From NCBI GenBank assembly GCA_028715055.1, contig JAQTLE010000001.1, positions 186,001-250,000 of the forward strand: a stretch of 64,000 nucleotides of DNA, written 5' to 3'. The stretch comes from Sulfurovaceae bacterium (GTDB taxonomy: Bacteria > Campylobacterota > Campylobacteria > Campylobacterales > Sulfurovaceae). The notes beneath the pieces are model-generated. The model was not told the DNA's origin. It was given only the letters and a program-made list of their open reading frames with translations, and made no database searches. The position numbers and the translations under genes were made by a program. Below, piece after piece: positions 12,322-16,014 of the stretch; position 1 is the stretch's first letter, and each line of letters starts with the position of its first letter.

Positions 12322-15300
12322 TTATAAATACTTTTTCAAAATCGCTTCTTTTTGCTTTGGTATTTCGGCAATTTCTTTTTCTAAAATAGTTATTTTTTCT
12401 TCAATTTTTTCTATTTCAGAAACAATCTTTTGCTGTTCTGTAAGTGGAGGAAGAAAAATTTCAAAATTTTTAATTTTTTCTTGAGATAAATTATCTCTAG
12501 CAACCCCTGTTCTAGCATTCAATAAATCTTCATATTGTAGTTTTAGATGGTAATATAAAAATTCAGGCAAATATTTCTCATTAGGCAAAACTCCACAAAT
12601 TGCCTGATTCGTAGAAGATTCAAATCTAAGAATACCAACTTGTCCACCTGTTGCTCCATACATTGCTATCAAAACCGTATTTATAGGAAATAATTTTGCA
12701 CTAGATTTTTTTAGTCCAATCTCAGAAATATAATTTTCTGTTTTATAAATATTGCCTTGACGAACCTCACCACTATTAAGCCATGGTATTGTAGGGTTTT
12801 CATAATATTCCGATTTTGTTCTTAATGGAGTTCCGCCAGAAGAAGTTTCTGCTAATTGTCCAATTTTAATTTTAGGAAATTTATTGAAAACTGAATCTTT
12901 AAAGGTTTTTTCTAAAGATTTATTTAAATTCTCCATATCCACTTTCACTTTCTTCTCTTTAGCCTCTAAAACTTCAATTTCATCTACGATTTTTTGCTGA
13001 ATGTCGAGCGGTGGGAGAGAGATTTTCAAAGAGTTAAAAGTTTCAATTTCAAGATTTTTTTGTGCAACACCTTGACCACACAAATAAACTCTCTCTTGAT
13101 TTAAGAATAAATATTGATTTAAGTAATCTTGATTTAGAACAGACGAATCAGATGTATTTAGTGTTAATCCTGAATCATTTAGGAAAAACTTTCCAGATAC
13201 ATACCTGACACATTTTGGTGACATTCCAAATCTTGAAATTATAAAAACATCTTCTCTATTATAATCGTTTGATTTGAAAGTTTCTCCTCCGCCTCCATAG
13301 ACAGGGTAAACACTGCCTTGCGCAGTTTTTTTTACTATACGAGTTCCATAGTCAATCATTGAAACTTCACCAAGTTTTTTCAGTTGCCACTTACTTTCGA
13401 TTTTTATTTTTTTTTTAATCGAAAGTGAGATGTTTTTCTCAAATTCTACTCTATCAAACGTGAGCATATCTACCAAATGATGACGACTTACATTGTTTCG
13501 CATCGCTTCATCTATTGGAGTTTCAAAATCGCCTTCAAATGCTTTGTAGATGTATGTGCTTGCCTTGGTCGGATTGTCAAAAACATTAGGATCAAATAGC
13601 ATTGTGCAGTCTTCTATATTTTTACCTCTTTGTATTGGATGAATCCCTTCGCTTCCTCTACGGTTAGAAAATTCATAACCTAAAAAGCGTTTTTCTGCAT
13701 CTTTTTCACCGCTTTTTATCAGTACTACTTTTTGTGGATAGGCAAGAATGAAATAGTAGAGTTTTTCAGCCTCTCGTTCTAATAATAGATTCCAAAACTC
13801 TTTGTCATTTTTGGCTTTTAGCTTTTTACGATATTCAGTATAAATTTCATGTTTTGCTATATTTTCATTTGGCTCTTTTTTGAGCATAGATATATAGTCA
13901 TTAAGCGAAATATTTTCCCAAACATAGTTTATGTATTTGCTTACAGGTTTTTCAATTCCGTTCAAAGTTACATCTTGTAAATTATTAAAGAATTTTTCTA
14001 CTGAAATTTTGAGATTTATGCTTTCGTAATTGTTTCTTCTTCTCAAAAACAATGTAACCGTATTGGTTCCTGTCGCCATAAAGGTATTGGAGCCTAGTTC
14101 TGCAATACCTACAATTTCAAAATATTGCAAGATTATTTCTCTAGTTTTGGCATATATGCCAGTGTTGCTGAGTATGGAACTAGGAAGTATAATACCAGCT
14201 ACACCACCATCTTTTAAGAGTTGTTTGGTTCGCTCAACAAATAAGCACTCAATCTCTGAGCTATTGTCGGTAAGTTTGTCATATAATTCAAAATCATTCT
14301 CTTTGTAGTATTCGCGTGATGCATTTTTAAATGCTGATACCGAATATGGTGGATTAGATACTATGATATCGAATTGTTTGTTTTCTTGCGGGAAATCTTT
14401 GTCTTTAATAAGTAGCTTGCCTTTGTAGTCAGGATGACCAAAATGAGCTAAGCCATCAGAATGAATTACATTTGCAAGTCCATCGCCATGTAAATAACAA
14501 CCAACTTTGCCGACCTTAACAAGTCTATAATCTTTTTCTATGCCGTATATATAGTCGATGGCCCAAGCAAAATGTTCATTTTGCCAGTTTCTTATCTTTG
14601 TAGCTATGCTCGGATGATATTTTGTATCGTCTTTGTTATTGATAAGTCTTTGTATCTCATGCATTGTTTCTGTAAGAAAATGACCGCTGCCTGCAGCATA
14701 ATCCATAACATACGGCAATAAGGTATCGTTTGCTATTTTTGCAGATACTAATTTATTTTCTAAAATTTTATCTATCGGTAAGCTCTTTATCACAAATTGT
14801 GCAACGGGTACGGGTGTAAAGAATTGACCTGATTCTTGTTTTAGACCAGTGGTTAGCAGAAGCTCAAAAAAATCTGATAAATATTGTTGTTTTTTTGTAT
14901 ATCTGAGTTTGTAACCTTGCAAAAGCTCTACTATCTCTTTTACAACAATTGCATTTTGATTAAATGATTCTTCATCATATACATCTTTTATAGCAAATTC
15001 ATTGTTTTTTTCAAGTCTTATTTTTTTAAATTCTTCTAATATAGGATCTCTTTGTTCGTCCGTTAGATAAGGGAATTTATTTCTAAATTCTGTTTCACTA
15101 AAATCTGTGACGACTTTTTCCAAAAATTCATACATACCATTTTTGTATAAATCCGTTAATCGTAACTGAAAGCTTCTATGATTATCATGTTCTAACCATT
15201 GAAAGCCAAGTTCATTATGCGTACCGTTATTGATGTATTCATCGTATATCTTACATAAAAAAAGTGTAAATATGCGGTTAAACGCATTGCCTTTATCTGA

Positions 15301-16014
15301 TACTACATTGTGTCTTAGAATTTCTAAAAATCTATTAAAAATAAAACTACTATCTTCTTGTTTTATTTCTTCAAGATCATTGATGGTTAATGCTTTGCTT
15401 TCAAAATCATAGGGTTTTGCCCAACTATCAAAAACCCCATTGTCTTTTGTGAGCTTATTCCATTTGTCATAAAAATCTCTGACATCACCATTTCTATAAT
15501 CTTCTTCAATTCTCACAATCTCATTTTTGTAGATTATTTGATTATTTTTAAATTCTGAAGCATAGAGCATAATAATATCTGGTTTATTGCTAAATTTAAA
15601 ATATGTGAAGAGCTGTCCGCCATCTTTTTTCATGCGGTTAAATTCTTTATCAAACTCTTTGCCATATGTTTTGCATTCGATTAATAAATATTCAGTTCCA
15701 TCATCATGGGTGACACAAATATCCAGTCTTCCTGAAAATCCATGTCCAGCAGGATATACTTTCTCTAATTGAATGTTTTCAGGTTTGTATCCTGTTTCAA
15801 GCAAGCGATTTGCACATTCTAAAACAACCCAATCCTCTGGTTTTACAATGTTTTGAGTAAATTTATCATATACTTTAATCTTGCCACCATAATTGATAAT
15901 GTTATTTTCTGTATCTATTTCTATAAAATAATTATTTTGATATGATTTTATATATTTGTCTGCAGTATTTTCTTTTGGTTGAAAACCAAGAGCGAACAAT
16001 AATTTTTTATTCAT
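12322..16014 (-). CDS. Single-chain restriction-modification-specificity protein (Type IIB/IIG or fused Type I)
   Basis: A 1230-residue protein combining nuclease, adenine methyltransferase and DNA specificity. The N-terminal HsdR-like nuclease has Asp98 in GRLDI, Glu113 and Lys115 in LIECK, and GGQLFTYF (a QxxxY motif). The HsdM-like part has SGQFFTP (about 395), DYAAGSGHF (motif I, about 440) and SNPPYS (motif IV, about 555). Two HsdS-type target-recognition domains (about 870-1060 and 1065-1230) end in the ISLPPL / IFLPPL coiled-coil segments. No helicase domain or partner gene is present, as in AloI-type enzymes. I choose the ATG at 16014 (GGAGG six bases upstream); an ATG at 16032 is in frame but lacks a site. 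An A10 tract lies at the M-S junction. Confidence 0.88.
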   Translation of the reverse strand: MNKKLLFALGFQPKENTADKYIKSYQNNYFIEIDTENNIINYGGKIKVYDKFTQNIVKPEDWVVLECANRLLETGYKPENIQLEKVYPAGHGFSGRLDICVTHDDGTEYLLIECKTYGKEFDKEFNRMKKDGGQLFTYFKFSNKPDIIMLYASEFKNNQIIYKNEIVRIEEDYRNGDVRDFYDKWNKLTKDNGVFDSWAKPYDFESKALTINDLEEIKQEDSSFIFNRFLEILRHNVVSDKGNAFNRIFTLFLCKIYDEYINNGTHNELGFQWLEHDNHRSFQLRLTDLYKNGMYEFLEKVVTDFSETEFRNKFPYLTDEQRDPILEEFKKIRLEKNNEFAIKDVYDEESFNQNAIVVKEIVELLQGYKLRYTKKQQYLSDFFELLLTTGLKQESGQFFTPVPVAQFVIKSLPIDKILENKLVSAKIANDTLLPYVMDYAAGSGHFLTETMHEIQRLINNKDDTKYHPSIATKIRNWQNEHFAWAIDYIYGIEKDYRLVKVGKVGCYLHGDGLANVIHSDGLAHFGHPDYKGKLLIKDKDFPQENKQFDIIVSNPPYSVSAFKNASREYYKENDFELYDKLTDNSSEIECLFVERTKQLLKDGGVAGIILPSSILSNTGIYAKTREIILQYFEIVGIAELGSNTFMATGTNTVTLFLRRRNNYESINLKISVEKFFNNLQDVTLNGIEKPVSKYINYVWENISLNDYISMLKKEPNENIAKHEIYTEYRKKLKAKNDKEFWNLLLEREAEKLYYFILAYPQKVVLIKSGEKDAEKRFLGYEFSNRRGSEGIHPIQRGKNIEDCTMLFDPNVFDNPTKASTYIYKAFEGDFETPIDEAMRNNVSRHHLVDMLTFDRVEFEKNISLSIKKKIKIESKWQLKKLGEVSMIDYGTRIVKKTAQGSVYPVYGGGGETFKSNDYNREDVFIISRFGMSPKCVRYVSGKFFLNDSGLTLNTSDSSVLNQDYLNQYLFLNQERVYLCGQGVAQKNLEIETFNSLKISLPPLDIQQKIVDEIEVLEAKEKKVKVDMENLNKSLEKTFKDSVFNKFPKIKIGQLAETSSGGTPLRTKSEYYENPTIPWLNSGEVRQGNIYKTENYISEIGLKKSSAKLFPINTVLIAMYGATGGQVGILRFESSTNQAICGVLPNEKYLPEFLYYHLKLQYEDLLNARTGVARDNLSQEKIKNFEIFLPPLTEQQKIVSEIEKIEEKITILEKEIAEIPKQKEAILKKYL
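13393..13426. repeat. Inverted repeat around a poly-A/T10 tract inside the R-M-S gene
   Basis: ACTTTCGATT (13393-13402) and AATCGAAAGT (13417-13426) are perfect 10-bp inverted arms, and the 14-base spacer ends in ten T (13407-13416), ten A on the coding strand. On the coding strand the tract encodes the lysines of SIKKKIKIES at about residue 866, where the methylase part ends and the specificity part begins. Confidence 0.85.

Follow-up and report, generated by a model that had tools for sequence, protein, structure and literature searches.

How can a restriction enzyme with a single nuclease-methylase part serve two target recognition domains (TRDs), and why does its gene hold a long run of adenines just where the two parts meet? 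Both questions arise at one gene in a 64,000-nucleotide stretch of a Sulfurovaceae bacterium genome (GenBank assembly GCA_028715055.1, contig JAQTLE010000001.1, positions 186,001 to 250,000), hereafter the window, in whose coordinates all positions are given. The gene encodes a restriction-modification-specificity (RMS) protein, in which a nuclease-methylase (RM) part is followed by a specificity (S) part with two TRDs, and ten A (A10) lie at the RM/S seam. How single-chain enzymes with one RM part and two TRDs act was called a mystery in a 2014 review (PMC3874165). We propose that the conserved tract is a site of programmed slippage, probably transcriptional, giving an RMS chain and a free RM, which together would form (RM)2S. 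We put the probability of this reading at about 0.68.

An adenine tract at the RM/S seam

The tract lies in frame between the RM part and TRD1, and a stop codon follows closely in each of the two shifted frames. The gene is laid out as follows.

12322..16014, minus strand: RMS gene, ATG start, 1230 amino acids (aa), in nuclease-methylase-specificity order.
13417..16014, minus strand: RM part, residues 1-866, probable nuclease domain and N6-adenine methylase, from domain, sequence and fold matches.
13407..13416, minus strand (T10 on the plus strand): A10 tract, the candidate slippery site; codons 867-869 (AAA AAA AAA) and the first base of codon 870 (ATA).
13404..13406, minus strand: TAA reached after loss of one A; product ending ISLSIKKK, 869 aa.
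13391..13393, minus strand: TAA reached after gain of one A or a -1 ribosomal shift, at AGT-AAG; product ending KKKNKNRK, 874 aa.
12985..13389, minus strand: TRD1, from about residue 876 (end approximate), a Methylase_S/Specificity stretch with a TRD fold in a predicted model.
12358..12873, minus strand: TRD2, residues 1048-1219, Methylase_S match at 1e-37 and fold match to HsdS structures.

In the coding sense the tract is preceded by ATT and followed by TAAA, and the open reading frame (ORF) runs across it as ...ISLSI-KKK-IKIESKW.... The first-pass annotation, made from the letters of the window, had read these frames correctly: ten A lead into the specificity part, nine give the 869-aa product and eleven the 874-aa product. 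In a predicted model of a fragment of the protein, a coil at fragment residues 552-578 precedes a TRD fold, and the tract falls in this coil, at a predicted local distance difference test score (pLDDT) below 50, immediately before TRD1.

Runs of this length are rare in the source genome. Its 1,764,351 bases hold exactly one A10 or T10, the RMS tract itself, and about 37 runs of A9 elsewhere. Within the window, counts of A/T runs drop steeply above length 7, in agreement with the general avoidance of long A/T runs described earlier (PMC1088944).

Conservation of the tract

The tract is conserved across phyla. We compared 54 distinct homologues with at least 42% identity in the RM part, drawn from genome contigs and from searches of nearly 2000 genomes; their sources include Campylobacterota, Bacteroidota, Gastranaerophilales and metagenome genomes labelled Alphaproteobacteria and Riflebacteria, among others. 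The run is A9 in 37 of them, A10 in 9, A8 in 1 and A4-A7 in 7, so that 46 of 54 carry A9-A10. Every tract homologue whose specificity region is completely sequenced reads in frame. Once the hypothesis had been framed, two further homologues came to light (L163 and L164), each with A10 and with GTA or GTG as the next codon. The first-pass annotation had suggested looking among homologues for unrelated codons at this position. These do not characterise the clade; they are found only in its one-TRD members and in more distant enzymes.

Codon choice within the tract is biased towards the unbroken run. KKK is coded AAA AAA AAA in 44 of 50 members, against 30.4 expected from their own lysine codons (P=1.5e-5), and at just 2 of 13 other KKK sites in the same genes. 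The third lysine is AAG in three members, two of which (L052 and L128) retain A9 through a preceding codon ending in A. Because these two keep the run while changing the codon, the kept feature is, on this comparison, run length and not the codon.

Selected stops in the shifted frames

Stop codons in both shifted frames are under selection. The codon after the tract is mostly GTA, GTG, ATA or CTA, so loss of one A places a stop directly after KKK. Such an immediate stop occurs in 37 of 47 homologues, against 18.3 expected from their own codon use (P=7e-10), and the excess persists after thinning to below 75% identity (P 2e-4 to 4e-6) and below 65% identity (P 2e-3 to 6e-3). General codon-context bias, a preference for NTA after AAA, was tested as the cause and proved insufficient: with codons matched for context (after AAA and before A), the valine count at the site is 26 of 29 versus 0.48 (P=3e-6). 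In the frame entered by gain of one A, the distance to a stop is 4-11 codons in all tract homologues, and the stop is usually at ATT-GA. In 500 synonymous reshufflings, stops never came so early in both shifted frames. The first-pass annotation had also considered a scar left by fusion of hsdM and hsdS; a passive scar leaves these selected stops unexplained.

Synonymous constraint peaks at the tract. We scanned the whole gene (964 codon columns, 960 four-codon windows) using pairs below 75% identity, and the tract ranked first of the 960 windows. Constraint also appears at the codon before the tract and at the stop-making codons +3 and +6, and is absent at the lysine between them. Two-product slippage, which the first-pass annotation had raised as one possibility, thus gains strong support from the cross-phylum A9-A10, the stops selected in both frames and the constraint peak. 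Conserved programmed slippage at the tract appears well supported by these patterns.

In 42 of 47 members the codon preceding the tract has T as its third base, and no other single codon near the site shows so large a synonymous excess (0.35). Perhaps this T serves to fix the run at exactly nine.

Tract and number of TRDs

Presence of the tract follows the number of TRDs. A9-A10 occurs in 45 of 49 two-TRD members of the clade and in none of three one-TRD members (Fisher test approximately 0.002, calculated by hand and without phylogenetic correction). A quick tree of the RM part gives two separate origins of one-TRD enzymes within the tract clade, L005 (beside L003, which carries the tract) and L047, and the tract is missing from both. 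Each ends at a normal C terminus, so neither is a truncation. The absence of the tract from one-TRD members is suggestive of a need for it only where one RM serves two TRDs.

As a matter of enzyme history, L005 and L047 are one-TRD enzymes nested in a two-TRD clade, apparently through loss of one TRD.

A single-chain enzyme with one RM gene

The RMS protein looks like a single-chain Type IIG/IIB-like restriction-modification-specificity enzyme of the AloI/CjeI kind. The PADLOC model REase_MTase_IIG (PDLC03624) matches it end to end (776 bits, residues 3-1230), and the Pfam families N6_Mtase, Eco57I and Methylase_S (two stretches) also match. The N6-adenine (gamma) methylase spans residues 376-697 (N6_Mtase, 2.8e-25) and holds an NPPY motif. 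The N terminus, where a PD-(D/E)xK type of nuclease was looked for, is probably a nuclease; its HSDR_N_2 match is weak (residues 59-125, 23.6 bits, just below the 25-bit cut-off). The RM subunit of BsaXI matches the RM part in sequence (8e-43, from residue 26) and in fold, and the specificity region matches Type I HsdS subunits in fold over about 400 columns. A TTG start upstream of the ATG would lengthen the protein by 6 aa.

A search of the source genome for a second RM gene gave one match only, the RMS gene itself. No viral or phage relatives of the gene were found, and a plasmid search returned only distant matches in Lactobacillus gasseri and Mycoplasmopsis.

A proposed source of the second RM

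Slippage at the tract would let one gene supply both subunits of an (RM)2S enzyme. Selection would keep A9-A10 as a slippage site, at which RNA polymerase would insert or skip A in some of the transcripts. An mRNA made without slippage would give the full RMS chain of 1230 aa with its two TRDs. Messages slipped in either direction would meet a stop within 0-8 codons and give a free RM of 869 or 874 aa, which would comprise nuclease and methylase, lack the specificity region and have its C terminus in the flexible linker that precedes TRD1. One RMS and one free RM would then join as (RM)2S, so that each TRD gains a nuclease-methylase partner. From what can be read directly in the DNA (the tract, its frames, its conservation, the selected stops and the two-TRD association) we infer the occurrence of slippage, its transcriptional level, its rate and the assembly. 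Three points suggest the assembly: BsaXI is (RM)2S, an EcoKI fusion of M and S worked in vitro only with M supplied, and there is no further RM copy in the genome.

Parallels to this proposal exist among known systems. The dnaX gene of Thermus thermophilus slips to about 50% at an A9, and its shifted frames run into stops (PMC1088944); in an E. coli reporter an A9 cassette yielded about 40% frameshifted product (PMC3711429). Like dnaX with its tau and gamma products, the RMS gene has an in-frame A9 or longer, nearby stops in the shifted frames, and a long and a (here predicted) short product for one complex (PMC1088944). Unlike dnaX, it encodes a defence enzyme, to which the short form would bring the catalytic subunit that it lacks, and its slippage is a prediction. 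The two-gene Type IIB systems BcgI and BsaXI share the RM and two-TRD S modules, and BsaXI is (RM)2S (PMC11997821); their RM and S genes are separate, whereas the RMS gene is a single one and the slip is proposed for its seam. AloI, CjeI, PpiI and TstI share with the RMS protein a length of about 1250 aa and the order nuclease-methylase-TRD1-TRD2 (PMC3874165), and the literature examined describes no slippage site for them.

Two fusions also offer parallels at the seam. An artificial EcoKI HsdM-HsdS fusion, in which a methylase is likewise joined to a two-TRD S, was active in vitro only with added free M (PMC3510504). It differs in being artificial; its source of free M was left as proteolysis or stalling, and no slippery tract was proposed (PMC3510504). 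In the controller-endonuclease fusion CR.NsoJ138I, frameshifting at a restriction-modification (R-M) fusion seam was likewise suspected (PMC3850674). That fusion is of a different kind, and frameshifting was tested in E. coli and not seen (PMC3850674). With the terms used, we found no report of slippage in R-M genes in the open-access literature.

Several observations weigh against the proposal. For the two-TRD enzyme TstI, a homotetramer built from a single kind of chain is reported to be active (PMC4027205). No such tract lies close to the seam in two-TRD enzymes that are further removed (35-41% RM identity, mostly Campylobacterota), and four two-TRD members of the clade itself lack A9: L104 (A5), L117 (A6), L116 (A7) and L105 (A8). 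The one-TRD association comprises two independent events only, and a pair test on them cannot reach significance. The AAA-codon enrichment by itself falls to P 0.01-0.2 after strict thinning. Given the tractless distant enzymes and the TstI homotetramer, slippage would be one solution to the architecture and not its universal need.

The four two-TRD members with A5-A8 raise a question of their own, that of where their second RM comes from.

That a widespread clade makes its own second RM by transcriptional slippage at the RM/S seam, with one gene as the whole (RM)2S machine, strikes us as somewhat better than an even bet. If true, a free RM from the same gene would be a simple answer to the one-RM-two-TRD puzzle for this clade. 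It would also extend protein-shortening slippage of the dnaX class by a chromosomal case; an earlier genome screen described this class as difficult to predict by comparative analysis (PMC1088944). The RMS gene should then be annotated with two products, and codon optimisation of the tract in enzyme work could cost the short subunit.

Alternative explanations

Programmed -1 ribosomal frameshifting of the E. coli dnaX type is unlikely, and would leave the two products unchanged. The tract does contain an in-frame A_AAA_AAA heptamer, replaced by A_AAA_AAG in three members (L052, L105 and L128), and a -1 shift meets a stop within 4-11 codons in all tract homologues. The usual stimulators do not accompany it: a Shine-Dalgarno-like element upstream occurs in 0 of 46, and downstream structure is inconsistent (mean z -0.73, with 13% below -2). 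Seven A are enough for a ribosomal shift, yet nine are kept, and the most strongly selected stop lies in the one-A-loss frame, which a -1 ribosomal shift does not enter. We favour slippage by RNA polymerase over a ribosomal shift because nine A are held though seven suffice, because stops are selected in both frames and because stimulators are absent.

Slippage may be real and the short RM serve as a regulator, a decoy or a setter of the balance between restriction and methylation, and not as the second RM of (RM)2S. The sequence data point to selection for a short product and are silent on its partner. A role in stoichiometry agrees better with the tractless one-TRD members and with BsaXI and BcgI as (RM)2S precedents, and we consider these other roles quite unlikely.

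Replicative phase variation, in which tract length in the DNA toggles between RMS and RM-only states, had been put forward in the first-pass annotation and now appears very unlikely. Mononucleotide runs are a common device of phase variation; runs of G13 and G15 occur in distant relatives, and of two plasmid copies in L. gasseri one has G8 and the other G9. Between species, the frame is intact in all tract homologues whose specificity region is complete, and run length is pinned at 9-10. Phase-variable Type IIG enzymes do have a homopolymer in the same class of gene, but theirs is poly-G, varies in the DNA and has been found in out-of-frame copies, an example of which occurs among the relatives seen here. 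A steady output of short product accounts better than phase switching for the immediate stops selected in both frames.

Least likely of all, and strongly disfavoured, is a run without function, arising simply because AT-rich genes encode a conserved KKK linker: KKK is indeed conserved at the protein level and lysine is AAA in about 85% of cases in the RMS homologue genes, but this view predicts neither the stop-making codon choice (P=7e-10), nor the top constraint peak, nor the compensation in run length, and A/T runs of such length are otherwise avoided in the genome.

Inverted arms and a second adenine run

The tract is flanked by a perfect 10-bp inverted repeat, as the first-pass annotation had pointed out.

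13393..13402, no strand assigned: inverted-repeat arm ACTTTCGATT, a perfect 10-bp pair with 13417-13426.
13417..13426, no strand assigned: inverted-repeat arm AATCGAAAGT, partner of 13393-13402, not conserved.

The arms are real and their implied role does not hold up. In tract-bearing homologues the flanking arms are 3-6 bp only, and arms of 10 bp are unique to the window. We rejected a functional hairpin on the ground that the homologue arms are so short; the arms seem incidental and no part of the mechanism.

A second run in the RMS gene, A8 at 13326-13333 (T8 on the plus strand), lies in TRD1, in a GTG AAA AAA AC region coding for residues KKT. TRDs differ among homologues, so general conservation of this run is not expected.

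Poly-G tracts in distant relatives

Distant relatives carry poly-G runs at other positions. In two Campylobacterota enzymes (L066 and L071), tracts of G13 and G15 precede the RM/S junction by about 118-121 nt, likely a case of replicative phase variation close to the seam. Two L. gasseri plasmids (L094, NZ_CP072179.1; L095, NZ_CP118066.1) carry G9, out of frame with a split ORF, versus G8 in frame, at about codon 288. The likely cause of this difference is a Type IIG-like enzyme that phase-varies through its poly-G run.
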